A stretch of 30,242 nucleotides of DNA from a virus: IMG/VR virus record IMGVR_UViG_3300025428_000014, positions 1 to 30,242 of that record; one strand, written 5' to 3'. How positions within the stretch are numbered: the stretch's first letter is position 1; each line of letters starts with the position of its first letter. Shown here piece after piece: positions 2,768 to 30,242 of this stretch. The notes beneath the pieces were generated by a model. It saw only the letters and a program-made list of their open reading frames with translations, had not been told where the DNA came from and searched no databases. Position numbers and translations under genes: made by a program.

Positions 2768-2986
2768 ATGAAGATAACCTACACACCAACAAACGCTGAT
2801 GAGTTGATGATCATTGGAGCAGTTCGCATGATTGCTAGAGAAAGAGATTGGAATGTAGTAAACGAACATTGGTTAGACGGAGACATCCTTGAGTTGTTAT
2901 CTGAAGTTGATATGGATTTACCTAAAGCCCTTAAGAACATTGAGCATATGGTTGCTATCAAGCGAGAATTTACCCAGTCAAACTGA
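2768..2986 (+). CDS. Small hypothetical protein, first gene of the rightward cluster
   Basis: 72 residues, family not recognised. Predicted mostly helical, acidic in the middle (HWLDGDILELLSEVDMDLP). The ATG follows a good ribosome site, CTACTAGGAG, at a spacing of 5 bases. The stop TGA (2984-2986) lies inside the CTGATGA core of the hammerhead ribozyme at 2977-3028, so the last two residues (SN) are encoded by ribozyme sequence. Confidence 0.75.
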   Translation: MKITYTPTNADELMIIGAVRMIARERDWNVVNEHWLDGDILELLSEVDMDLPKALKNIEHMVAIKREFTQSN

Positions 2987-3028
2987 TGATGGGCTAATGC
3001 CCGAAACAGTCGTAAGACTGTCTTTGAC
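2977..3028 (+). ncRNA. Hammerhead ribozyme 1 (type I topology)
   Basis: All three helices and the catalytic core can be read. Stem I is GTCAAA (2977-2982) with TTTGAC (3023-3028). The core CTGATGA is 2983-2989. Stem II is GGGC (2991-2994), loop TAAT, GCCC (2999-3002). Core GAA is 3003-3005. Stem III is ACAGTC (3006-3011), loop GTAA, GACTGT (3016-3021). C3022 completes the GUC triplet; predicted cleavage is between 3022 and 3023. Stem I is the open helix, which makes it type I. One oddity is an extra U (2990) between the core and stem II, which could lower activity. The new 5' end would lie 9 bases before the CCGCTAGGAG ribosome site of the next gene. Confidence 0.78.
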
Positions 3029-3047
3029 AAACCGCTAGGAGAAACAA

Positions 3048-3323
3048 ATGGCTAATTGGAAACAAACACTAGACATCACTGATCTTATGGAGACCTTTGA
3101 GCAGACTGAGGATGCTCTTACCTTTGCTAAGAGGGCATCTACTCGCATCCAGTTGTTCATTGAAACACACCAGTCTTGGGCAGATCGCAGTGGCATCACT
3201 GAAGACTTAGAGCAGATCGCTGAGTCTTTCTCATATGCTGATGACACCGCAGAGATTGACTACATCATGGCTGATCTGTATGACCTTGCCGACAATGCCC
3301 GAATTTGGGTTAAGACATTTTAA
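3048..3323 (+). CDS. Small acidic helical protein
   Basis: 91 residues, not recognised. Strongly acidic with helical segments (DITDLMETFEQTEDALTFAK and EDLEQIAESFSYADD). The ribosome site CCGCTAGGAG precedes the ATG by 6 bases and comes directly after ribozyme 1, so ribozyme cleavage would make this the first gene of the processed downstream RNA. Acidic proteins of this kind can be DNA mimics or inhibitors of host proteins, but there is no direct evidence of that here. Confidence 0.75.
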   Translation: MANWKQTLDITDLMETFEQTEDALTFAKRASTRIQLFIETHQSWADRSGITEDLEQIAESFSYADDTAEIDYIMADLYDLADNARIWVKTF

Positions 3324-3466: not shown

Positions 3467-3473
3467 GTGCTGT

Positions 3474-3517
3474 AATCCTGATGCCCTTTGGGGTATCGGG
3501 ATTGCCATTCGGTAATC
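3474..3517 (+). promoter_or_regulatory. Structured leader with two mutually exclusive hairpins
   Basis: Hairpin A (3474-3503) pairs AATCCTGATGCCC with GGGTATCGGGATT around a TTTG loop: 13 pairs, two of them G-U. Hairpin B (3500-3517) pairs GATTGCC with GGTAATC around ATTC, one G-U pair. They share bases 3500-3503, so only one can form completely. The element sits directly before the TTAACTGCTAGGAG ribosome site of the next gene, where the two ribozymes sit before theirs. The G-U pairs point to function as RNA. It lacks the GAAA core and is not a hammerhead. Confidence 0.5.
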
Positions 3518-3538
3518 ATTAACTGCTAGGAGTTCAAA

Positions 3539-3901
3539 TTGGAAACACAAACTGTAAAGAAAACAATCGACTTATCCCAGTTCTATGGCACTGAGTCGTA
3601 TCACCGCACTAACCTGTTTACCCCTAAGTTGGTTCACACTGATGGGGTTCAATACTTTGCCGATCAAGGTGGTTGCTACTGGTTCTTGGATATCGTTGCC
3701 AGTGAATACTATCCACTGTTGGCTAAAGAGCCACTGCTCTCCATCCAGTTAGCCGTTGAGGATGGTAAAGCAGATATCTGCGTGGAAGACGGAGACTGCA
3801 ACATCATAAAGCAAAAGCATATTGCCCTGACTGATTGCCCTGATGGGATGTATCGGTTCTTCCTTACGGACAATGTTCTGATGCTTACTTCGGAGTATTG
3901 A
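3539..3901 (+). CDS. DUF6876-family protein, TTG start
   Basis: 120 residues. The pattern DLSQFYGTESYHR, VHTDGVQYFADQGGCYWFLD, IVASEYYP, ALTDCPDGMYRFFLTDN and C-terminal VLMLTSEY matches what I know of the DUF6876 family, found in phages and plasmids without a known role. The start is TTG at 3539, set by AACTGCTAGGAG at a spacing of 6 bases; no ATG lies near the conserved N-terminus. The stop TGA at 3899-3901 overlaps a possible TTG of the next gene. Confidence 0.8.
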   Translation: METQTVKKTIDLSQFYGTESYHRTNLFTPKLVHTDGVQYFADQGGCYWFLDIVASEYYPLLAKEPLLSIQLAVEDGKADICVEDGDCNIIKQKHIALTDCPDGMYRFFLTDNVLMLTSEY

Positions 3902-4692: not shown

Positions 4693-5265
4693 ATGGGATG
4701 GACTGGGACACAATGCTTTTTCAAAATCAGTCGCAAAGACTTTTTGATTAAAGAATTTACGCAAGAAAACGATACCCACAAATGGTGGCTAACCAATATC
4801 TCAATGCGTGGCAACACCGCATATTGCATTAGTTGGCAAGAGGAGAAAGCCACTGGGATCAAACACCATGAAGGCATGGTTATCTTGACTGAGAAACGCA
4901 GAGAAGATCCTGATTGGATTTATTACAAGAATATGGGGGAGACTGTATTGCCCTATTACTTTGATGCTCCCAAGAGCCTTATTACGACTCTTAACGCATT
5001 AGGTATGCCGTTCAATACAAGTGCTAAACAATGGCGAGAGCGATGCTTGGCAAATGCCAGTGTCAAGAAACCAAAGTTAAAGTTTGGCGATGTTGTGAAG
5101 TTTGCCCATCCGATGTCATTCTCATTCTCTACTGGGAGGGTTGAAGAGGACACCTTTACCTATGTTGAATATGGGACAAAGAGAAATGTATTCAAGACCA
5201 GTCAAGGGAATCTTTGCCGTATATCAAAGTTAGCCAATAGGGAATTTACAGTTCTATCAAACTGA
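4693..5265 (+). CDS. Hypothetical protein starting MGWTGT (190 aa)
   Basis: One of the larger proteins of this cluster. Its start MGWTGTQCFFK resembles a set of phage and plasmid hypothetical proteins with a conserved MGW-T start. The N-terminal half is mixed alpha/beta (TAYCISWQEEKATG, GMVILTEKRREDPDWIYYKNMGE). The C-terminal part (KFGDVVKFAHPMSFSFSTGR to NVFKTSQGNLCRISKL) looks like a small beta-barrel. The ATG at 4693 follows AGGAGG at an ideal spacing; an in-frame start 15 bases earlier has no such site. The stop TGA (5263-5265) lies inside the CTGATGA core of ribozyme 2, and the last residues, SN, are the same as in the gene before ribozyme 1. Confidence 0.75.
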   Translation: MGWTGTQCFFKISRKDFLIKEFTQENDTHKWWLTNISMRGNTAYCISWQEEKATGIKHHEGMVILTEKRREDPDWIYYKNMGETVLPYYFDAPKSLITTLNALGMPFNTSAKQWRERCLANASVKKPKLKFGDVVKFAHPMSFSFSTGRVEEDTFTYVEYGTKRNVFKTSQGNLCRISKLANREFTVLSN

Positions 5266-5349
5266 TGAGCCAAGAGTAATGGCGAAACAAGTAAGTATGA
5301 GACCGCAAAGTCGTATGACGAGACCGCAAATTACTTACTTGTCTTTGAT
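5256..5349 (+). ncRNA. Hammerhead ribozyme 2 (type I topology)
   Basis: A complete hammerhead. Stem I is ATCAAA (5256-5261) with TTTGAT (5344-5349). Core CTGATGA is 5262-5268. Stem II is GCC (5269-5271), loop AAGAGTAAT, GGC (5281-5283). Core GAA is 5284-5286. Stem III is ACAAGTAAGTA (5287-5297) with TACTTACTTGT (5332-5342), 11 perfect pairs. C5343 completes the GUC triplet; predicted cleavage is between 5343 and 5344. Stem III is capped by a 34-base loop holding a duplicated GAGACCGCAAA (5299-5309 and 5320-5330). The 3' product begins TTTGATT and runs straight into AACTGCTAGGAG, the ribosome site of the next gene. Confidence 0.9.
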
Positions 5350-5369
5350 TAACTGCTAGGAGAATTAAC

Positions 5370-5837
5370 ATGGGTTTAGATATGTATTTAACCGCTAAGA
5401 AATACCTTTGGTCTGATGCCGATAAGGAGTTATCTGCCAAGATCAATGAAGCCATTGGAGTTGAGCCTGACTTTGAGAAACGATTTAATGGTTCAAGTTT
5501 GGTTGCTAAAGAGATATCACTGGATGCGATGTATTGGAGAAAAGCCAATGCCATTCATGGATGGTTCGTCAATGTTGTTCAGGATGGTGAGGATAACTGC
5601 CGAGAATATGAGGTAGATCGAGAACAGTTGGTAACACTGCGTGATCTTTGCAAAGACATCCTTGAGCATCCTGATGCTGAAAGGGAAACCGACTTAGAGC
5701 CGACTGAGGGATTCTTCTTTGGTTCTTACAAAAAAGACGAATGGTATTACGAAGACCTGAAGAACACTGTTGAGGGGTTGGATAAGGTCTTGACATTACC
5801 TGACGAGTATTCATTTAGCTATCAAGCCAGTTGGTAA
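5370..5837 (+). CDS. Conserved phage hypothetical protein, MGLDMYL family
   Basis: 155 residues. It begins MGLDMYLTAKKYLW and contains MYWRKANAIHGWFV, VQDGEDNCREYEV, QLVTLRDLCKDIL and GFFFGSYKKDEWYYEDL, a combination found in many phage hypothetical proteins whose function is unknown. The fold appears mostly helical with conserved aromatics and acidic residues. The start is set by AACTGCTAGGAG 7 bases before the ATG, immediately after ribozyme 2, so this would be the first gene of the cleaved downstream RNA. Confidence 0.82.
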   Translation: MGLDMYLTAKKYLWSDADKELSAKINEAIGVEPDFEKRFNGSSLVAKEISLDAMYWRKANAIHGWFVNVVQDGEDNCREYEVDREQLVTLRDLCKDILEHPDAERETDLEPTEGFFFGSYKKDEWYYEDLKNTVEGLDKVLTLPDEYSFSYQASW

Positions 5838-17442: not shown

Positions 17443-18123
17443 TTACTCCTTTGCAAATTTGTTTTTGGTTTCAGTAAACTTGCCCATCATCTCTTTAAAG
17501 AACTCAGGGTCTTTTGCTTTGACGGTATCAAAGAGAACCTTGTTCTTTTTAAATATCGTCATAACATCGGCATCGCTAGAGCATAGGTCTAGCAACATAT
17601 GGGATGAATCCCTAACCAGTGCAAGCCATTCTTCTTGGGTGCAATCAGGTTTAGCGTTGATCACAATTTGAAACTCACCTTTCTTGCCCTCAATCTTTTC
17701 AGGCATTTTGGTGAACTCAGGCTTGGGTTCAATATTCTTAGGTGGCTCTTTAGGCTCTTGTGCATCAATGTGATCATTTTCTAAAACATCCATGCAAAGC
17801 AACCAAAGGTATCTGCGAAAATAGGTATGGGTGCTGCCCAGTGACTGGATAGCCTGACCTTTGGCGTTCTCTGCATATACCAGTGGTGAAGTAAAGGTAA
17901 TCAAACCATCACCTTCTGTTTCATGCACTGTTAAATACGCAGTATCAGAGGTAAATGACACGACACCGCACAAACCAATCTTGTTAAAGATCTCGGTTAC
18001 TTGGGGAATAAAGTCACCTAGTTCAAAGTAATTGAACCCTGCAAACTTATTCTTTCCTGATTTGTTGAGAGGAGTTTTGTGAAGCAATGCTCTTGCTTCT
18101 TGTAGTTTTTTATAAACGCTCAT
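17443..18123 (-). CDS. erf: ERF-family single-strand annealing protein
   Basis: 226 residues. The core VSVYKKLQEARALL (first residues), FAGFNYFELGDFIPQVTEIF, and AIQSLGSTHTYFRRYLWLL followed by DVLENDHIDA matches the ERF superfamily (P22 Erf, LLG-x-TY-x-RRY-x-L... motif). It anneals complementary single strands during phage recombination and genome circularisation. The C-terminal 80 residues are a lysine/proline-rich linker and a small helical domain (TQEEWLALVRDSSHMLLDLC). It sits in one unit with the exonuclease at 18279, the usual annealase-exonuclease pair. Confidence 0.88.
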   Translation of the reverse strand: MSVYKKLQEARALLHKTPLNKSGKNKFAGFNYFELGDFIPQVTEIFNKIGLCGVVSFTSDTAYLTVHETEGDGLITFTSPLVYAENAKGQAIQSLGSTHTYFRRYLWLLCMDVLENDHIDAQEPKEPPKNIEPKPEFTKMPEKIEGKKGEFQIVINAKPDCTQEEWLALVRDSSHMLLDLCSSDADVMTIFKKNKVLFDTVKAKDPEFFKEMMGKFTETKNKFAKE

Positions 18124-19613: not shown

Positions 19614-19955
19614 ATGAATACAGTAATTTTGCCCTGGCCTCCTAAAGAATTAAGCCCAAATTCCACATTACACTGGGCTAAGAAGGCTAAATTTAAGAAA
19701 AGTTATCGTCATACTTGCTGGGCGTTGACCTTAGAAGCCAAGCTCACAGCTGACGGATCAGGGAAAATCCCTATCCTGATTACCTTTTACCCCCCAGATA
19801 AACGCCATCGGGATGCAGATAACATGGTTGCCAGCATCAAAGCTGGATTGGATGGCGTAGCAGATGCCCTCAAGATAAACGATAGGCAGTTTATGCCTAC
19901 GTTTACCTTTTCAGATGAGGTTAAAGGAATGGTTAAAGTCCAGCTGACAGCCTGA
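19614..19955 (+). CDS. rusA: RusA-family Holliday junction resolvase
   Basis: 113 residues. The N-terminus LPWPPKELSPNSTLHWAKKA and the acidic motif PDKRHRDADNMVASIKAGLD with GVADALKINDRQF match RusA, including the conserved aspartates (D62, D66/D68 region, D83 and D91 by eye) that bind the catalytic metal. It cuts four-way junctions produced by recombination or replication and clears branches before packaging. It is the only rightward gene in this region, has its own promoter, and its end overlaps the giant gene by 23 bp on the opposite strand. It probably works with the ERF and exonuclease products. Confidence 0.92.
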   Translation: MNTVILPWPPKELSPNSTLHWAKKAKFKKSYRHTCWALTLEAKLTADGSGKIPILITFYPPDKRHRDADNMVASIKAGLDGVADALKINDRQFMPTFTFSDEVKGMVKVQLTA

Positions 19956-22900
19956 ACTTAATTGTCTGATCCAGAATTTCTTCTTTTTTGTTCTTATAGA
20001 AGTTAATCTGTTTGCGTTTTTCGTCTGGTGACAGCCTGTTTGCTGGCAGATCCTCAATCCTACGGATCTCAGCGTTAATATCAATCAGAGCTTTACCAGC
20101 ACCAGCCGTAAAGCCAGAAGCCTTGATTTCACCTTCATGGTCTTTAAACCATTGCTGGGCTTCTTCTTTATGACCCTTCTTGATTAAATCCTTGAATGTG
20201 CCCATAGCAGTGTCAGAACGGGTCTTCAGGTCGTAGAAGAGATCTTCCCTGCCTCGTGGTACTTCAGGAGCTACAAACGAGCCATAGAGGGGATTATTGC
20301 GTTCCTCTGGGCTTGCTTTGTGACCAGAGAATAGGTTAGATCCCCACATCGCAGCAGCAGCCACAGAACCGCCTAAACCACGCATGACGTGATCAGCTTG
20401 GATTGGGCTTAACATCCGATGCTCTTGGGAGCCTAGACCGCTGGCATAGCTAATCCACTTTCCTAATTCAGAGGTGCTGCCGTTGTATTGACGGAAGGCA
20501 GCCAAGTCTTTCATTGACTGTGGAGTGACGTTACCGCCAGTGTAGAAGTCATGGTTTAGGGCTATCTCAGCAAATGGCTTGATGGCAGTAGGCACTGGAC
20601 CCGATCCAAGTGGGCCAAGTAATGCATCCACTGCACCTTCCTTGAGAGCTTTACGCAATCTAGCATTGTCGATGGCATCTTTAGTACCCTCTTTAGTGAT
20701 CTTGTTATAGAGCATCTCAGGGATAGACTTAAAGAAATAGCTGGCAGAAGTATGCATTGGGATGAGCAAGGTATGGTCATAGCCAATTGTCTTCATCATA
20801 GAACGAGGGATAACAAAGTTACGCATCTTTGTCTGATCATCCATCTTCTTGTATTCGTCATCATCACCAATCGCAAAGGCATATAACAGGCAAGTAGAAG
20901 CCAATAGACCGCTGGCAATAGCCAATCTGGTCATTGCTTGCTGACGATCTAATCCTCTTAGACCACCGCTAATACTGGTAATTTTTTGACCTGTGAGCCT
21001 TTCTACACCACCAGCAATAGGCTCTGCCAATGCTTGGGTCAGCACATCAATCTGCTGGGCATAAGCGTTCATAAACGCAATAGTCCTGTTGAGGAATTGA
21101 GCTGTTCTACCCATGCCACGCTTGTCAAAGTCAATGACGTTAGTCGCTGCAAGAATAGCTTTACGCTGGTCTCCACCGCTTGGGAAACCGCCAGTCTCTT
21201 TCATTACACGCACATAAACGGCTCTACGCTGTGCAAAGTCTGAGGCATCAGCAATCTGGTCAAGGATGCTGGTCACTCTGGCAAAGGCTGATTTATTTAA
21301 TAAACCAATTTCTTGCTTGTATTGATGCTCTGCTGTTCTAGCACCAGAGTGATAACCGCCAATACCGTAAGACTTGAGCAACTCGACCACGTCATCCTTT
21401 TGGGTCAAGCCTTTAGCAAATGAACCAAACACACCGCCAAACAAGGCTACTGGGTTCTTCACGCCAGTCACGATGGCAGCTGTTGGAGCATCCATGAAAA
21501 GCTGTTTAATCTGGAATACGCCAGAGAAAGTAATCGATCTACGCAAGCCGTTAGCAAAATAAGCCATGATCTCGTTCATTGGGATTTGGATGTTTTCAAT
21601 ACCAATCACGGACTGAGCAATCAATGGGTCAGCAATTTGAATGTTGACCTTTCTGCCACTAATCAAAATCTTAACAATGCCACGAGCAGGATCTTCTTTA
21701 GGGAAGACTTTGAGCTTGCCGTTCTCGTTACGAGTGCCATACTCCTGGGCAATACGGTTGGCTGCATAGTTCTTAATGGCGTTACGAGTAGTCACCATGA
21801 CGTTGTGAAGCATATTGTCCACGATGTCATCGATGTCTAAATCAACCTTGCCTTCTTTAAAACGATGCTCTCTGGCTACGTTCTTGACACCTTTAGAGCT
21901 GTAGATTGGGGTATGAACGTCTGTCTGTTCATCCATAATCCGCTGCCAAGGCACATAGTCTTCGATGTCACGCAAGGTATCAGCACGTTGTTTGCTGATC
22001 ATGCGAGCTTGTTCCATCATGTCAATCATGTTCTTGTTGACAGCGTTCCAGTTATCCATCATTTTTCTAAGTTCTGGATACTGTTTGTCTAGCTTGCTAA
22101 AGTCATCAATCGCCTCATCGGACATATTGACCTTTTGCAAGGCAATACCGATGTTCTTAAAGTCTTGTTCAGCATCAGCAATCTTGTCCAAAAGCAATAG
22201 CTGACGGTCTGGTGAAGTTCTTGGATCCATCTGCTCTGTTTTAAGATCTTCTAATTCACCTTCACGCTTGAGGTATTCATCCACGATAGAACGTGAACGC
22301 TTGGCTTCAAAGTAGGCTTGGATGACGTTGGCAGCACGTTGAACGCCAATCTCTTTCTCTAACTGATGCTTCAAGGTCAGGATATTAGCCATCGAGAACT
22401 TGTCTTGTACGGCATGGAACATCTGATTGGTGTTATCAAAGACTAATTTACCCAGCATGATGACCTGAGTACCAATACGAGTAGCTTTGAGAGCTTGGTT
22501 CATAGCCACAGAAGCCACAGCACGACCTTCGCTGTCTTCTAACATACGACCATAACGGGCTGCATCGGCAGCTGTCAGACCAGCTGTGAAGTCTGTTGTC
22601 TTAATACGAGTAGCCAGCACTGCACGATCTAAGTTTCCAACCATGTTGTTGACAGCAAGGCGTGGTGACTCGACCATCTTCGCACCAATATTCTTAGCTT
22701 CTTGAGCACCGCCCAAGAACTTATCCATCACACCGTTAGAGGTATGGATAGGAGCATCATTGCGATTGTGCTTGGCTAGTAGCTCGTCAGTCTTCTCAAC
22801 GCTGTAGAGGAACTTAGTCTTATATGGTCCTGAACTAATCAGGTCTACCAACATAGTCTTATGGTCTCTAGGTGTCTCGCCTTTAATTAAATCATTGAAG

Positions 22901-25900
22901 GCTTTGTAAACTGAATGGGTATTGTTAAAACCAAACAGCTTCTTCATCGCCTCAAATACTTGACGGATGGCGTTAACATAACGACCCCAAGGAGTTCCCA
23001 TACGAGTGCCAAATAGCTTCTCAGCGTTGACAGCCCAGAACTCTGAAGGATTGATGTATTGGTACATATCCTGTGAAGGCAACAACTCCATCGCCTTTTC
23101 AAAGTTTTTCTCGCTTGGATCATTGACGTAATCCATTACCGCCATGAAATACTTTTGAGATACTTCATCAGTGTTTTTCTTGATGGCTTTCTCAAGGGCT
23201 GCTCTCCAAGATTCAACAATGGCTTGCTGGGTCTGTGGATCCATCATCTGCTCAAGTGTATGCATTAATTCATGGCGAATAGTGCCAGGATTAACAGCTC
23301 CTGATTCCTTGTATAGCCTGACGATACGCTCTAGGTTATTGAACACGCCAGCAGCTGTATAGGCTGCGTTCTGTGGAGCTTGTTTAACCGATAAGCGTAG
23401 ACCAGTCAGAATGGCTGGGGATTGTCTGTAGATGTATTGGATAACGTCTAGGACATCTTTGCTGATATTGCCTTTGTTGTATTCGTTAAGGGCACGAGCC
23501 ATAAACGCTTCAGGCGTAATCTTCTTCTCAGCAGTCATCTTCTTGTCGGCTGCCAACTCTTTGGCAAGCTGATCAAGATAAGTTAACTCACGCTGAGTAT
23601 TGATTGTGGTCTCGCCTTTGATGACTTCACGCTTGATCTTGGTAATGCCACGTCTTACACGAGCCAACTCATCTGTTTTAGCTTTGTGAATCTGGGCAAT
23701 CTGTTCCCTAAGATTCTTAGGAATTACACTTGGATTTAACTTTGGAATATGAGCGTAATTGGTTAAAGTAAATCCATCTTCATGGGCTTTACGGTCATAC
23801 TCAATAGCTTTAGCAGGGCTTAGAATACCGTTCTCTGATTCAGCACCGTTGTAATAATCAATTGCAACTGGCAAGTATTTAAAGCCTAATTCTTTTGCTG
23901 CCATGATTCGATGGTTTCCTTCATTTACATAAGGGGTGCCATCTTGGTAAACATTGATATATGGGGTGTAATGGGTTTTACCATCTTTCTCAAATGGCAA
24001 ATGGTTTTTCTCATTCATGTAATCCATTAAGGATTTCAAATCTGCAACTCTTACATTGCGTTGCTCATCATTTATACCTTGCAGTTTTGCAAGAACATCA
24101 ACTGGAACAAGCATTTTTCGAACTGGTGAGTTTGTTACGCCCTCTTTTGTTCTGAAATAAGCTGTTGCAGAACCAAATCTATATGGAACTCCAGATGATT
24201 TTCTGCCATCTTCTCTAGATAATTGACGTTTGTGCTCTAGCCAATTTCCACCTGGATTGTCTGTAATCATATAAACGGGAGGAACTTTTGGCTGATACAT
24301 TACGCTTGGAGTAACGGTTGCTTTTGGTGGAGCAAACATCTCTCTGGCTTTATCTCTAGGGCTAGAAGCAATCAGAGTGTCACCACGTTCATTCAAGATA
24401 AAATCAATCGCTTTGGCAGCCTGTTGTTCATTACCTCTGGCATACATAGTGTTGCCAGACTTATAGAAGTCACCAGTAATATCAGTCAAACCTCGGTCTA
24501 GGAAGTATGTACCGCCTTCTTTCTTAGAGCTTGGGACATTGAATTGATACTGGTTGCCATAGCTAGACTTGGTAATCCGCAATACATTATCCGCAGAAGT
24601 AATAACACCGTTTACTTCATTCATAAACCGCATAGCATCGGCAGCTGACCGCAGACGGATAGGAGCTTCACGAGCAGCCTTCTCAAAGTCATAGGTGCGT
24701 GGCATGAGAATACCCTGACCAGTAGTGCCGTCAGCTTTGGTATAGCTCATAATCTGACCGTGATTCTTTACCGTATCAGATGCAAATCCAGCCAAAATAT
24801 TGCCAGTGACCATCCAGCGTTTCTCACGCCTGACGTTAGCACCTTTATCAAACAAGTCTTTTAATGGAATGTTTTCTGCTTGCTGGGTATCTGGGTTGTA
24901 CCAGTTAATGTAATTCTCTTGGTTTAACTGATAAGTGCTGCCAATTTGTGAGAAGTTAATCGTAATGGCTTTCGCATCACCGTTAGCCAAAGCAATATGC
25001 ATCTTCCAGTCTGAGCCAGCAACAGGGTTGGCAGTTTTCTTTTTATTCTCTAAGTCAGTCACAACACCGTAGACAAAGATACCTTGGTTATTCTTAATAG
25101 AAATTGGCTGACCTACTGCATAGTTTTCCAAAATAGACTTGATGTGCTGATACTGAAGGTTTAATTGACCCTTGGCAGCATCAATACGGACTTCATCTGC
25201 ACCTTTTTCTTTCAGGTTCTCAATTTGTTTTCTACCGTATTCGGCTGCACGTTCTCTTACACCATCCATGAGCTTGTCAACTTTTTGGCGTTGTGTTCCA
25301 CCTTCCAAGTTCTCACTCACCATTTCTTGAACTTCTTGTTTGGTGTATGGCTTAACAGTACGTTTAACATCTACCTTTTCCATGTAAGCTGGTTGAGCAA
25401 ACAAGGAAGGATCTCCTCTGTCTGGAGTAATAGGCACGGATGATAGGGTTTCAGCATCAAGGTCTTCTGCTTTAGCTTCGAGCTTGTTGGTTCCCATGCT
25501 GTTCTCACGTTCAACTAAATCGTTGTAACGATCAATCAGATCTTTATAAATCTCTTCCTGTTCTTTGATTGGCAGGATAGGAATGTAGCCAGTCAGTCTA
25601 CGGATGTCATCTTCTTTAGCATCGGTTGGGTCTTCTATAAGATCTACAACCTTTTTACCGCCAATAGCTTCGTGAACCTCTGGGTTGTCACGCAAGTATT
25701 CTTGTGCAATCTGACCACCGTAGTCATTCATAAAGTCCACAGCACCTTCGGCTGTAACGGCAGACTTACGGGAAGCTGTCGTATTGGCGTTCAAGGAAGC
25801 CATCTTCTTGAGCAATACCGCAGCTGGCCTCATCTCCGCTGGGATGTCAGCCATCATCTGTGAGTAGGCTGGAGCTACAACCTGACCAGTACGATGCACA

Positions 25901-28900
25901 CGACCAAGCATCTGCATATGGGTATCAATGTTCTTTTCAGGCTGAACAATGATCATGTGACGTTTGCGTTGATCTTTAAAGCTAGAAGATGCGTGTAATG
26001 ACAAGCCAGTAGAACCAGCTTGGTTCAGGATAATGACATCGGCTGTGCCATTGTTAAATGCACGAACAGCACCAACACGCTGCTTAATATTGGCAGAACG
26101 AGAAGTGAGAATTGGTGTGCCACTCTCATAGTTAAGGGTCACTGTACGACCAGTAATCTCTTCTGTCTTGTACCCAGCTTTACGCAACTCATTGTGCATA
26201 TAGTCAATTGGGGAGATTGGAGCTGCACCAAAACCAGCATTTTCAATAAATGTCTTAATCTGGTTATAGGCTGCCAAACGCTCTGGACCAAGATCCTGAT
26301 CGGTCATACGGTATTGCTGTACGCCATTTGGTCCTTTGATCTTGAGCATCCGCTGCTTTTCTAAGTAACGCAGATACAGATCTTTAAAGGTCAAATTGAC
26401 TGGATCACCTACGTTGATGCCCATTTCATCGGCATAACTCTGTAAGAATGAACCCATCGTATTGGAAACGGTCATTACGACCTTCTCGCCATTCTTGAGG
26501 CTTTCCACAGCGTGTTTGATTGAGTCCTGGGCTTTTAATGACAAAAGCATCTGGTCAATCAAGTTGTGCATGATGGCACCAAAATTTGCACTCTGGATCT
26601 GGGTCTTCTCACCTTCGATACTTGCTCTACCGCCAGACTTGTCAAACTCCTTTTGCATCTCTTTGACAACGGCTTCTTTAGAACGGGAGAAAGCCAAGAT
26701 GTCACGCATCGAGGTAGCCATGTTCTCAGCTGTCTGCTTATCGACCTTTGTCTCTTGGGTCTGATAGCTCACACCAGCAAAGGTTCTTTCCCTGCGGATA
26801 TATTGACCGACTTTGGTCAGCATATTGGCAACAATCTGTTGCATTGGAATACCGCCTAGCTTGATGGCATCGGCTAATTCATTGATGTTATCAACCGCTA
26901 ACTTCATGTCTGTGCTGGAATACAAGTCCATCACATCAGGGCGTTTAGCGTAGGTAGCTGACGAGAAGAACGTACCAAAGGCGTTATCTACCAAGTCACG
27001 GACAAAGGCTGCACGACCAGTGGCTAGGCTCTTGCCTTCTTTCTGGGATTCTCTTTGTTCTTTGCTACGGGCTTGGGTTTCACCAGCACCGCCAGCGTTA
27101 TGACTTTCGTCAAAAATCATGTAGTTGCCAAGACCAAACGATTTAATAAAGCGTTGGCGTTCTGTTTCGTTTTTCTTAACAGCTTGCAACTGGCTATAGG
27201 TAGTAAAGATTACCTTGTAATCGCCAAGGCTTTCTTTCTCTTGCATACCCTTCATCATCTCGTCTAATGCTTTGCCAGTCTTAGGAGCTTTGAGGGTAAG
27301 GTTGTTTTCTGTTACTTCGCCATTAACAGTGCGGAGCAAGGTATAAGGAATAGATTCACTAGAGTTAGTGATAAAGATGCGTGGTTTGGCTGTATCTAGT
27401 CCTAACTCTTTGGTCATACCGATATCATCCAAGTCACGGATCATGTCGGAGTAAAGGTTTGGCTTCTCTGTAACAAAGATAGGTACTTTGTCATTCTCGA
27501 TGGCGTACTTGATCATCGCAGCAACAACACGACCTTTACCAATACCAGTCTGGTCTCCAATAATGAAGCCTTTGCCAGCTTCAGCATTACGGATAGCCAA
27601 AACCAAGGCATCAATTTGTTCAGCGGAGAACTTCTCACGCAGGGTCTCTGGATCCATGTGCAGGGCTTCTGCTACATATTCATCCACATCACCGACTTCA
27701 CGCTCTACTGCTGATATTGAATTGTCGATGGATTCAGCCATTGCTTTAGGAACCAATGTTCCAACGGATGCAGCTTGCGAGTGAGGCTGGTAAGCAACTT
27801 GATGCCCAGTCTCTGTCTCTTGTCCTCTACGGTCTTTTAATCCAGACTCGACTCGTGTACCTGAGACAACGCTAGGTCCACCCACTGGGCTAGGCTCGTT
27901 TCCTGCAACGCCTTTTCTGCCACTGGGTTGCTGCTCTCCACCTTCGCTGGGAACGGGTCCTCGATTGATGCCACGTTCAGGTTCGTTAGCAAGTCCAGGT
28001 TGTCCTGCACTAACACCTGCCCCAGTTGGTTCGGGTTGTCCACGTTTGCTAGACTCATTCTCAGACACGCCTCGTCTGCCGCCTTCTGTGGGTCGCTCTC
28101 CTTCAGCACCAGCTTCACGACCTTGTCCGCTAGGGCGTTCACCCACTGGTTCTGGTTTAGGCTCCCCTGCGGTACGCTCACTGACGTTAGTTCTGGTGGG
28201 GCTGACATTTTCTCTGGAAACCACGCTAGGTTCATTTAACTTCTCCTTGAGTTCTTCGTATGAGGTAATTTGCTGTGGGAGTTCCGAAGCTGGTAAGGCT
28301 CTTTGTGACTGACCTTTTCCATCAATAACAATGACATCTACAGGGTAAGAAGCTCCCTGTTTACTGTACATATCCCCAGCTACGGAGAAATGGTCAACTA
28401 CGTTGTAATCTTTGTAGAGGTTGTAATAAAACTCTCGTTTTGCTTTTTGACGATAACCTTCACGCCTTGCATCTTCACCTTCAGCACGGACACCGCCTAG
28501 GATCAATACGGCTCTGCCATTAGCTGGCATATCATTTAAAGCTTTGTATGAAATAGCATGATCTATTTCTCTAGTGGTTTTTCCATAAACATGAAATTCT
28601 TCGCCAATAGAACCAAAAGGAGGGTTGGCAATGACTACATCGACAGGATTTATGGATTTAAGAACTGCATTTTCATTAGATACTTTTGCACCTGGAAGCA
28701 CCTTTTTGAGCATTTCATAACGGCTAGTATTGAGTTCGTTCACCGTAACATTGTTAGGGTTAGAAGCTATCAACAACATTCCGTTACCGCCAGTAGGCTC
28801 GTAAACCGTTGTTTTATCAGTAATTCCTGCTAGTTGCGATGCAACATAAGCCAATGGAGCTGGGGTGGAATAAGCCTGTTCTCTAACACTGGTAGAACTT

Positions 28901-30242
28901 CTGACAGCCAAATTAGGCTGACGGTTGTATAGATTTACCAAGCCATCATAGATTTCGCTTGGCTTTCTGTTCTTATGGGCAATGTTCTGGGCAGCCAATA
29001 CGACACCCACTTCCACAGCCTCATCAGCTTGTTTGGCAGCCATCGTGCCAGCTTCAATCTTTTGACCAGTCAAATCGGCAATGAATCTACGGGCTTCGTT
29101 GATATCTTTAAAGCCTAGACCACCCATGAAATGCTTAGAAATAGCTTGTGCAATATGGAACTTGCCATCTTCTGTATTGAGGTCAAGAGTACCTTTTGGC
29201 TCTTTAGCTTCTTCTAACTCATCCAAAGATTCAACTTCAACCACTTCCTTCTTGGTGCTTGCTTCTGGATAGTTACCAGACATTGCAATATAAGCACCTT
29301 GAAGATGGTTAAGGTTGATTTTTTCAGCAACGTCTTTACCAAACTTCTCAAGAATCATGTCCCTGACAAATTTGGCAGCCTGTTTGAACTTGTGATAGCC
29401 CATTCGGAACGCAGCATCCATTAACCTAGTAAGGATAGGCATCAAGCGTTGCTCATCCTCTGGCATCATATTCATACGGGTAGGCTTAGTAGCCAGCCAT
29501 GCTAGGTCATTTAAAGCATCTTCTAAGTCTTTTTTGGCTTTAGCTTCTGGGGATTCTGGAGCTACAGTAGGGGCTGATACAGGAGTAGGGCTTAAATACT
29601 CTTTAAGTTTTGCCATATCCTGAGAATCAGAAAATGCAGTAAACGAACCTCCATGAGGTATACCAAATGCTGTAGCTTCTGGAGCTATAAATACTTTGCC
29701 ATTTTTTTGGTTAATTAAACCAGCTTGCTCTAATTTCTTTAATAAAGGTTTGGCTGCTTCTGTATATTGCATACCATTGCCAGCTTTAAGAATCTGAGCA
29801 GCATCAGCAATATCTTCAAGTGTTATAGATTTTTTTACTTCTTCAGTTGCTTTTGCTTTCTTTGCAGCTTGACGTTCTTGGTTTATTTGAGCTTGAGTTT
29901 TTTCCTCAGTTTCTGGTGCAACTTCTTCAGCTGCTGCTTCAGTTTCTGCAACAGGCTTTTCTTTAGTGGGAACTTCGGCAGTTTCTTCGCTGGGCTTTTC
30001 TTCACTGACGGCTTGCTCAAGGTAGGGCTTGGCTTTTTCATGTTCGGAGTTCGCATAATCAATCGCTTTCTGTTTTGATTCTTCGGTATTACCAAAATTT
30101 CTAGCCGTTACAAGCTGGTTAGAATCTTTATCAACTAAAACGGCAGTCCAGCCGTTATCGTTCTTGACAACACGATACTCAGTGTTCTCGCCCATATCCA
30201 ATGGAGCAATTGCTTCAGCTGGTTTTTTAACTGGTTTAAGTG
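19933..30242 (-). CDS. Giant polyvalent protein: methyltransferase, SBNO-type helicase, ParB-like, zincin, LPD38-like (5' end missing)
   Basis: More than 3,430 codons without a stop; the frame stays open to the right edge (linker KPVKKPAEAIAP), so the start lies outside. Residues are counted from the TTG codon at 30201. Order of parts: acidic linker (60-120); N6-adenine methyltransferase with VYEPTGGNGMLL (466-477) and NPPF (526-529); G/P/E/R-rich linker (about 665-800); SF2 helicase of strawberry-notch type with GDQTGIGKGR (882-891), DESH (1031-1034), SSAT (1080-1083), NQAGSTGLSL and GRVHRTGQ (about 1433-1440); ParB-like EGNHRIMAAKELG (2094-2106); zinc peptidase motif HELMH (2310-2314); a long helical C-terminus with a hydrophobic helix near 3092-3112 followed by GDDDEYKKMDDQTKMRNF, typical of LPD38. 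MTase plus SBNO helicase is the DarB arrangement of phage P1, an antirestriction protein packaged in the head. Virion location here is inference. Confidence 0.88.
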   Translation of the reverse strand, partial: LKPVKKPAEAIAPLDMGENTEYRVVKNDNGWTAVLVDKDSNQLVTARNFGNTEESKQKAIDYANSEHEKAKPYLEQAVSEEKPSEETAEVPTKEKPVAETEAAAEEVAPETEEKTQAQINQERQAAKKAKATEEVKKSITLEDIADAAQILKAGNGMQYTEAAKPLLKKLEQAGLINQKNGKVFIAPEATAFGIPHGGSFTAFSDSQDMAKLKEYLSPTPVSAPTVAPESPEAKAKKDLEDALNDLAWLATKPTRMNMMPEDEQRLMPILTRLMDAAFRMGYHKFKQAAKFVRDMILEKFGKDVAEKINLNHLQGAYIAMSGNYPEASTKKEVVEVESLDELEEAKEPKGTLDLNTEDGKFHIAQAISKHFMGGLGFKDINEARRFIADLTGQKIEAGTMAAKQADEAVEVGVVLAAQNIAHKNRKPSEIYDGLVNLYNRQPNLAVRSSTSVREQAYSTPAPLAYVASQLAGITDKTTVYEPTGGNGMLLIASNPNNVTVNELNTSRYEMLKKVLPGAKVSNENAVLKSINPVDVVIANPPFGSIGEEFHVYGKTTREIDHAISYKALNDMPANGRAVLILGGVRAEGEDARREGYRQKAKREFYYNLYKDYNVVDHFSVAGDMYSKQGASYPVDVIVIDGKGQSQRALPASELPQQITSYEELKEKLNEPSVVSRENVSPTRTNVSERTAGEPKPEPVGERPSGQGREAGAEGERPTEGGRRGVSENESSKRGQPEPTGAGVSAGQPGLANEPERGINRGPVPSEGGEQQPSGRKGVAGNEPSPVGGPSVVSGTRVESGLKDRRGQETETGHQVAYQPHSQAASVGTLVPKAMAESIDNSISAVEREVGDVDEYVAEALHMDPETLREKFSAEQIDALVLAIRNAEAGKGFIIGDQTGIGKGRVVAAMIKYAIENDKVPIFVTEKPNLYSDMIRDLDDIGMTKELGLDTAKPRIFITNSSESIPYTLLRTVNGEVTENNLTLKAPKTGKALDEMMKGMQEKESLGDYKVIFTTYSQLQAVKKNETERQRFIKSFGLGNYMIFDESHNAGGAGETQARSKEQRESQKEGKSLATGRAAFVRDLVDNAFGTFFSSATYAKRPDVMDLYSSTDMKLAVDNINELADAIKLGGIPMQQIVANMLTKVGQYIRRERTFAGVSYQTQETKVDKQTAENMATSMRDILAFSRSKEAVVKEMQKEFDKSGGRASIEGEKTQIQSANFGAIMHNLIDQMLLSLKAQDSIKHAVESLKNGEKVVMTVSNTMGSFLQSYADEMGINVGDPVNLTFKDLYLRYLEKQRMLKIKGPNGVQQYRMTDQDLGPERLAAYNQIKTFIENAGFGAAPISPIDYMHNELRKAGYKTEEITGRTVTLNYESGTPILTSRSANIKQRVGAVRAFNNGTADVIILNQAGSTGLSLHASSSFKDQRKRHMIIVQPEKNIDTHMQMLGRVHRTGQVVAPAYSQMMADIPAEMRPAAVLLKKMASLNANTTASRKSAVTAEGAVDFMNDYGGQIAQEYLRDNPEVHEAIGGKKVVDLIEDPTDAKEDDIRRLTGYIPILPIKEQEEIYKDLIDRYNDLVERENSMGTNKLEAKAEDLDAETLSSVPITPDRGDPSLFAQPAYMEKVDVKRTVKPYTKQEVQEMVSENLEGGTQRQKVDKLMDGVRERAAEYGRKQIENLKEKGADEVRIDAAKGQLNLQYQHIKSILENYAVGQPISIKNNQGIFVYGVVTDLENKKKTANPVAGSDWKMHIALANGDAKAITINFSQIGSTYQLNQENYINWYNPDTQQAENIPLKDLFDKGANVRREKRWMVTGNILAGFASDTVKNHGQIMSYTKADGTTGQGILMPRTYDFEKAAREAPIRLRSAADAMRFMNEVNGVITSADNVLRITKSSYGNQYQFNVPSSKKEGGTYFLDRGLTDITGDFYKSGNTMYARGNEQQAAKAIDFILNERGDTLIASSPRDKAREMFAPPKATVTPSVMYQPKVPPVYMITDNPGGNWLEHKRQLSREDGRKSSGVPYRFGSATAYFRTKEGVTNSPVRKMLVPVDVLAKLQGINDEQRNVRVADLKSLMDYMNEKNHLPFEKDGKTHYTPYINVYQDGTPYVNEGNHRIMAAKELGFKYLPVAIDYYNGAESENGILSPAKAIEYDRKAHEDGFTLTNYAHIPKLNPSVIPKNLREQIAQIHKAKTDELARVRRGITKIKREVIKGETTINTQRELTYLDQLAKELAADKKMTAEKKITPEAFMARALNEYNKGNISKDVLDVIQYIYRQSPAILTGLRLSVKQAPQNAAYTAAGVFNNLERIVRLYKESGAVNPGTIRHELMHTLEQMMDPQTQQAIVESWRAALEKAIKKNTDEVSQKYFMAVMDYVNDPSEKNFEKAMELLPSQDMYQYINPSEFWAVNAEKLFGTRMGTPWGRYVNAIRQVFEAMKKLFGFNNTHSVYKAFNDLIKGETPRDHKTMLVDLISSGPYKTKFLYSVEKTDELLAKHNRNDAPIHTSNGVMDKFLGGAQEAKNIGAKMVESPRLAVNNMVGNLDRAVLATRIKTTDFTAGLTAADAARYGRMLEDSEGRAVASVAMNQALKATRIGTQVIMLGKLVFDNTNQMFHAVQDKFSMANILTLKHQLEKEIGVQRAANVIQAYFEAKRSRSIVDEYLKREGELEDLKTEQMDPRTSPDRQLLLLDKIADAEQDFKNIGIALQKVNMSDEAIDDFSKLDKQYPELRKMMDNWNAVNKNMIDMMEQARMISKQRADTLRDIEDYVPWQRIMDEQTDVHTPIYSSKGVKNVAREHRFKEGKVDLDIDDIVDNMLHNVMVTTRNAIKNYAANRIAQEYGTRNENGKLKVFPKEDPARGIVKILISGRKVNIQIADPLIAQSVIGIENIQIPMNEIMAYFANGLRRSITFSGVFQIKQLFMDAPTAAIVTGVKNPVALFGGVFGSFAKGLTQKDDVVELLKSYGIGGYHSGARTAEHQYKQEIGLLNKSAFARVTSILDQIADASDFAQRRAVYVRVMKETGGFPSGGDQRKAILAATNVIDFDKRGMGRTAQFLNRTIAFMNAYAQQIDVLTQALAEPIAGGVERLTGQKITSISGGLRGLDRQQAMTRLAIASGLLASTCLLYAFAIGDDDEYKKMDDQTKMRNFVIPRSMMKTIGYDHTLLIPMHTSASYFFKSIPEMLYNKITKEGTKDAIDNARLRKALKEGAVDALLGPLGSGPVPTAIKPFAEIALNHDFYTGGNVTPQSMKDLAAFRQYNGSTSELGKWISYASGLGSQEHRMLSPIQADHVMRGLGGSVAAAAMWGSNLFSGHKASPEERNNPLYGSFVAPEVPRGREDLFYDLKTRSDTAMGTFKDLIKKGHKEEAQQWFKDHEGEIKASGFTAGAGKALIDINAEIRRIEDLPANRLSPDEKRKQINFYKNKKEEILDQTIKFRLSAGL

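Follow-up and report, generated by a model that had tools for sequence, protein, structure and literature searches.

In phage T7, RNase III sites cut the polycistronic early mRNA between genes and leave hairpin-ended mRNAs. For hammerhead ribozymes, Perreault et al. (2011) described clusters that flank genes in prophages and phages and proposed processing to single-gene mRNAs (PMC3088659). Such tandem phage and prophage hammerheads cleave in vitro, a triple arrangement was cleaved in E. coli, and the HHphage ribozyme of haloviruses HF1 and HF2 precedes an early helicase gene by 13 nt (PMC3088659). In synthetic insulators of the RiboJ type, a hammerhead is placed upstream of the RBS (PMC6993053). 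The roles of prokaryotic hammerheads were described as an open question in a 2017 review (PMC6155905).

We analyzed a 30,242-nt stretch of viral DNA (IMG/VR record IMGVR_UViG_3300025428_000014, positions 1 to 30,242; hereafter, the window). A first-pass annotation had reported a hammerhead at 5256-5349 and had presented its embedding in an operon as unusual. Clustered gene-flanking hammerheads and the proposal that they process mRNA were already published in 2011 (PMC3088659), and the arrangement that marks those clusters, more than one coding-strand hammerhead flanking phage genes or short gene blocks, is found here too, with two in the window. Judged from its sequence and that of its relatives, hammerhead 5256-5349 probably (probability about 0.78) cleaves itself and so serves to cut the RNA of a phage early operon between cistrons. 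The minus strand of the window also has one uninterrupted open frame at 19933-30201, 3422 aa long; in the related contig G001 it reaches 3948 aa. The parts of the locus are as follows:

5256-5349, plus strand: complete type I hammerhead ribozyme no. 1 (sequence, fold, model R1, relatives)
5249-5255, plus strand: outer extension of stem I, 5' strand CAGUU (5249-5253) and internal loop CU (5254-5255), from the MFE and centroid structures of 5245-5360
5256-5261/5344-5349, plus strand: stem I, 6 bp, A-U rich
5262-5268, plus strand: core CUGAUGA (sequence)
5269-5272/5280-5283, plus strand: stem II, 4 bp if A-U is counted
5284-5286, plus strand: GAA core box (sequence)
5287-5297/5332-5342, plus strand: stem III, 11 bp including A15.1-U16.1
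5298-5331, plus strand: 34-nt insert that closes stem III; a small hairpin lies between two GAGACCGCAAA repeats that face each other
5341-5343, plus strand: GUC triplet, H17 = C5343, predicted cut 5343/5344
4693-5265, plus strand: upstream gene encoding a 190-aa protein with a DUF6927 C-terminal domain; its UGA stop codon (5263-5265) falls within the hammerhead core
5344-5369, plus strand: 26-nt leader left by the predicted cut, GCTAGGAG ribosome site 5355-5362
5370-5837, plus strand: downstream gene, 155 aa, PHROG 7971, function not known

Every part of the complete type I hammerhead described in the first-pass annotation is where it had been placed. The catalytic core, C3UGANGA9 ... G12AA(A15.1), is intact (5262-5268, 5284-5287), the A15.1-U16.1 pair is A5287-U5342, and H17 is C5343, not G. 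The 11-bp stem III and the GUC at 5341-5343 are present in the sequence; stem II, which had been given as GCC/GGC, keeps its position but has a length of 4 bp once the A-U pair is counted. The hammerhead fold is the MFE structure of RNA 5245-5360 and has type I topology: the end of stem I is open, while loops close stems II and III. In both the MFE and centroid structures of this RNA, and again with 12/14-nt flanks, CAGUU 5249-5253 pairs with AACUG 5351-5355 and lengthens stem I, and a stem I internal loop CU/U is visible in the fold. With flanks extended to 30/40 nt, stem I loses to an alternative fold, which makes it the weak point of the structure. Across 299 relatives, the mean probability of stem I is 0.46, compared with 0.80 for stem II and 0.91 for stem III.

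The three helices around the core are kept by covariation among relatives. In an unambiguous alignment of ten short relatives, 16 of 16 pairs are always paired, all 160 pair cells are standard, and double changes occur in 11 of the 16 pairs (43 doubly changed cells). The covariation score of this alignment was reached by none of 500 shuffles, and slid pairings also fell far below it. Because the ten relatives were chosen by a descriptor that demands pairing, the unbiased evidence comes from sites fetched by the 3' part and from reversed controls. An IMG/VR scan with the 3' part of the hammerhead only (TGTCTTTGAYWAACYGCTAGGAG) returned 22 stretches; all sites except one at a contig edge have an intact core and stems II and III that differ yet remain paired. 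The descriptor found at least 353 copies in IMG/VR (at least 264 distinct, in at least 198 loci) and none in a 1.73 Mb reversed control; in another set it found 81 copies in real sequence and none in 0.79 Mb of reversed phage sequence, which upholds the earlier view that chance agreement is unlikely. The wider IMG/VR patterns omitted the ribosome site, and counts from them are lower bounds. The core, the topology, the compensatory changes in three stems and the conservation across many phages all support assignment to type I.

A covariance model built from the ten short relatives (R1) matches hammerhead 5256-5349 with 42.6 bits (E 2.4e-8) and gives 98 matches in 52 loci, both window copies included. 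The first-pass annotation had proposed scoring with Rfam Hammerhead_1 and had named the lack of a hit as a refutation: at the gathering threshold, Rfam matches neither window copy, while the family-specific model matches clearly. At E up to 10, Rfam gives no usable match in the window. RF00008 reaches 14.1 bits on 5256-5349 with its stems misplaced, and the gathering score of RF00163 Hammerhead_1 (34 bits), which the window copies do not reach, tests the coverage of the Rfam model rather than hammerhead identity. Two RF00163 matches passed gathering among ten ribozyme-rich loci. Rfam misses both window copies because its models leave this subfamily uncovered, and Rfam-based annotation overlooks nearly all copies of these phage hammerheads.

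The missing Rfam gathering match would fit a chance resemblance or a non-functional relic. We consider this extremely improbable in view of the zero counts in reversed controls, the covariation, the placement at junctions and the distribution of the motif: a looser two-gap pattern found 8 stretches in 257 Gb of prokaryote genomes, none of them a full hammerhead, versus more than 100 in viral contigs. A strict pattern gave no match in prokaryote genomes, and four of the genomes with the 8 stretches were negative with R1 in the part of the candidates that was scored; this route yielded no host. Neither a BLASTN search with the region nor tblastn searches with the two flanking proteins gave a match among 50,697 named phages, and the first 49-50 kb of HTVC027P, DSL-LC04, 023Pt_psg01 and MW202426, picked by terminase/helicase similarity, contain no hammerhead. 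The window virus infects freshwater bacteria, and a Betaproteobacteria-1 RNA match on a related phage contig (L010 3371-3489; Rfam, 100 bits) hints at a betaproteobacterial host.

The core is conserved in IMG/VR phage contigs, with at least 305 distinct intact copies versus four otherwise perfect copies that carry one core substitution, all U4 to C, and one unrelated match. Of the 305 distinct copies among the matches listed, 291 have C and 14 have A at H17. The intact cores, together with the free drift of the paired stems, argue for selection on catalysis. The U4 to C hammerheads (CCGANGA; L032 4766, L033 5960, L167 2649 on the minus strand, and L208 7286) are perhaps slow or tolerated variants. 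This pattern also bears on the possibility that hammerheads are recombination or cassette boundaries, conserved for early-gene shuffling, with catalysis incidental or lost. One upstream gene with its hammerhead does precede different genes (L004, L011, L013), and the same gene can have different junction elements before it, but the stems diverge compensatorily while the core does not, and homology boundaries would keep sequence, not structure; we regard this explanation as unlikely.

R1 finds 1-3 hammerheads per contig in 12 whole related contigs, and among the matches listed for whole related and other phage contigs there are 1-14, some contigs having 14 copies over 39.8 kb, 11 over 18.8 kb or 9 inside a 4.3-kb span. 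In the uncultured phage contigs G013 (L278+L279), G014 (L280) and G015 (L281), which have 14, 11 and 9 hammerheads, nearly all lie at gene junctions. In the window itself, a search for CTGATGA-N-GAAA returned two matches, the second of which is a hammerhead overlooked by the first-pass annotation:

2977-3028, plus strand: second type I hammerhead (model R1, 59.7 bits, E 3.4e-13)
2977-2982/3023-3028, plus strand: stem I
2983-2989, plus strand: core, with an extra U (2990) after A9
2991-2994/2999-3002, plus strand: stem II
3003-3005, plus strand: GAA
3006-3011/3016-3021, plus strand: stem III, H17 = C3022, predicted cut 3022/3023
2768-2986, plus strand: upstream gene, 72 aa, stop UGA 2984-2986 inside the core
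3048-3323, plus strand: downstream gene, 91 aa, with a 25-nt leader 3023-3047 and GCTAGGAG 3034-3041

The layout is the same as in hammerhead no. 1: the core UGA is the stop of the preceding gene, and the GCTAGGAG ribosome site follows the cut. Among distinct copies read with one extra base between A9 and stem II, this base is U in all but two; because the same insertion recurs, A9+U looks like a maintained variant.

The position of the hammerheads relative to genes is highly regular. At hammerhead no. 1, the stop codon of the upstream gene lies inside the core (UGA 5263-5265), as first described, but the start of the predicted 3' product, which had been put 7 bases before the ribosome site, is actually 14 nt before AGGAG (5358-5362) and 26 nt before the downstream ATG. 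Of the 293 distinct copies listed whose flanks were long enough, 204 (70%) combine an upstream ORF ending at -20 to +3 of C3 with a start codon 15-45 nt past the cut, compared with 2.4% of random same-strand positions. In the window's family, the core UGA is the stop in 24 of 53 distinct contexts, the remaining stops lying mostly 3-13 nt before C3. Measured from the cut, the ribosome site begins 10-16 nt downstream and the start codon 22-30 nt downstream, most often 25-28. Many junctions of the hammerhead-bearing operon have no ribozyme, which is a point against the cutting-site reading.

The leader, GCTAGGAG, appears from its distribution in the sequence to be the standard 5' leader throughout the phage; at window positions 17917 and 18477 (minus strand) it follows promoter-like sequences without a ribozyme. 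Because the AACTGCTAGGAG leader is also used after promoter-like sequences, cutting would recreate the leader of a primary transcript. Hammerheads at L087, L095 and L113 precede A-rich leaders without a Shine-Dalgarno sequence, as in Bacteroidota. The lack of Shine-Dalgarno sequences in these phages indicates that hammerhead use is wider than one phage group and suggests that unrelated hosts share the device.

Splitting of the polycistronic early mRNA into units is the best-supported reading of the junction placement, the intact cores and the fixed leader length. The sequences show structure, covariation, core conservation and position; in-cell cleavage, its consequences for decay and translation, and a link to termination are inferred. 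During synthesis of the polycistronic RNA, the ribozyme would fold at the boundary of two genes and cut 5' of UUUGAU. The upstream product would carry a 2',3'-cyclic phosphate, with stems II and III near its 3' end, and the downstream product a 5'-OH and a uniform 26-nt leader, with the ribosome site about 14 nt from the new end. Hammerhead 2977-3028 would act likewise further upstream, and because this second ribozyme would cut too, separate units would result from the operon. Because the upstream stop sits in the catalytic core, a ribosome terminating there should cover the core and stem I, and the RNA could then cut itself only in the gaps between ribosomes, when none is terminating. If this is true, some phages rely on self-processing RNA instead of host nucleases to run their early gene expression.

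It is nearly an even bet that the ribozyme cuts but that the selected benefit is mRNA stability, rather than translation insulation or operon splitting: the 5'-OH would escape 5'-phosphate-dependent decay, and stems II and III would cap the 3' end. Decay through RNase E and RppH is the general background of the 5'-OH argument, and T7 RNase III sites leave hairpins likewise. The upstream product always keeps stems II and III, and several relatives have an 11-bp stem III with a structured insert; however, stem III is just 5-6 bp in many copies, and a fixed leader length and ribosome-site spacing would be unneeded for stability alone. The two explanations are not exclusive, and splitting would probably bring with it a change in stability through the 5'-OH and through the hairpins that the upstream product retains.

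The predicted ends, 5'-OH and 2',3'-cyclic phosphate, would also suit ligation (e.g., by RtcB) of the RNA between two hammerheads to circular or rearranged mRNA, and in several phages two hammerheads closely flank one gene (e.g., L003 223-274 and 609-658). But Perreault et al. detected no splicing or circularization of tandem hammerheads when they looked for such products (PMC3088659), which makes ligation very unlikely here. Given such constant positions and leader lengths and so many copies, the role of the hammerheads can be tested directly: 5'-OH ends are expected 25-30 nt upstream of many phage start codons.

The loop of stem III in hammerhead 5256-5349 is a structured 34-nt insert, a point absent from the earlier description. 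Facing GAGWCCGCAAA repeats around a covarying mini-hairpin occur at window 5298-5331 and at L005, L015 and L023; because the insert is present in hammerheads at different junctions, it seems mobile as a module. At L035 and L038, a 6-bp GNRA hairpin lies at the insert site. We rejected a riboswitch or aptazyme reading of the insert: only the repeats speak for it, and a plain GNRA hairpin can take its place.

A further RNA element occurs at the same kind of junction:

3471-3519, plus strand: element X, structured RNA of no known class (model R2, 31.3 bits, E 3e-4)

Element X is built of two neighbouring helices, P1, in which one U is bulged, and P2; it is represented by 47 distinct copies, with the conserved frame UGAUACCU...GGAUURUCA...GAURRUCAU (loci: window 3471-3519; L006, L013, L023, L025, L045-L049, L077, L081, L093, L102, L282-L304). 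In 11 aligned copies, 18 of 18 pairs hold, 10 with double changes, and no Rfam family matches the element. An alternative pairing joins a 5' strand (UGAUA) to the 5' strand of P2; it too shows compensatory changes, so element X may be bistable. It is placed directly after stop codons and before the same leader as hammerheads. At homologous junctions (upstream of the window genes at 3539, 5370 and 3048), some relatives have a hammerhead and others have element X, and about 17 of 40 loci fetched by element X alone also carry a hammerhead. Element X could represent a ribozyme not described before, a site of the RNase III type, or a regulator. Tentatively, and with low confidence, we suggest that at least two RNA elements, hammerheads and X, serve interchangeably to punctuate the early operons of these phages, in which case X would be a further class of self-cleaving ribozyme or something that does an equivalent job, for example a processing site. 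Earlier self-cleaving motifs were discovered via association with the same kind of phage ORFs (PMC6155905).

The ribozyme class, its topology and the idea of operon splitting were already known. In the open-access literature, we found no description of the stop-hammerhead-RBS module; as far as this literature and the present searches show, what is new is this tight module and its scale, together with two structural variants (the recurrent A9+U and the stem III insert) and the exchange of hammerheads for element X. Like the T7 RNase III sites, the module would cut between genes and leave hairpin ends, but T7 relies on a host protein enzyme, whereas catalysis here is predicted to be by RNA. With RF00163 Hammerhead_1, the window copies share the type I topology and core, while scoring below gathering. 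As in RiboJ, the predicted cut falls just upstream of the RBS and would give a standard leader; RiboJ, however, is engineered and has a hairpin added after the cut, whereas the hammerheads described here are natural and intercistronic and have no such hairpin. The clusters of Perreault et al. are alike in ribozyme class, in having several coding-strand copies around small phage genes and in the proposed splitting of transcripts. The phages described here differ from them in the stop-ribozyme-RBS module with its fixed leader, in having up to 14 copies per contig, and in the recurrent extra U after A9, the 11-bp stem III with its repeat-bearing insert, and the interchangeable second RNA element.
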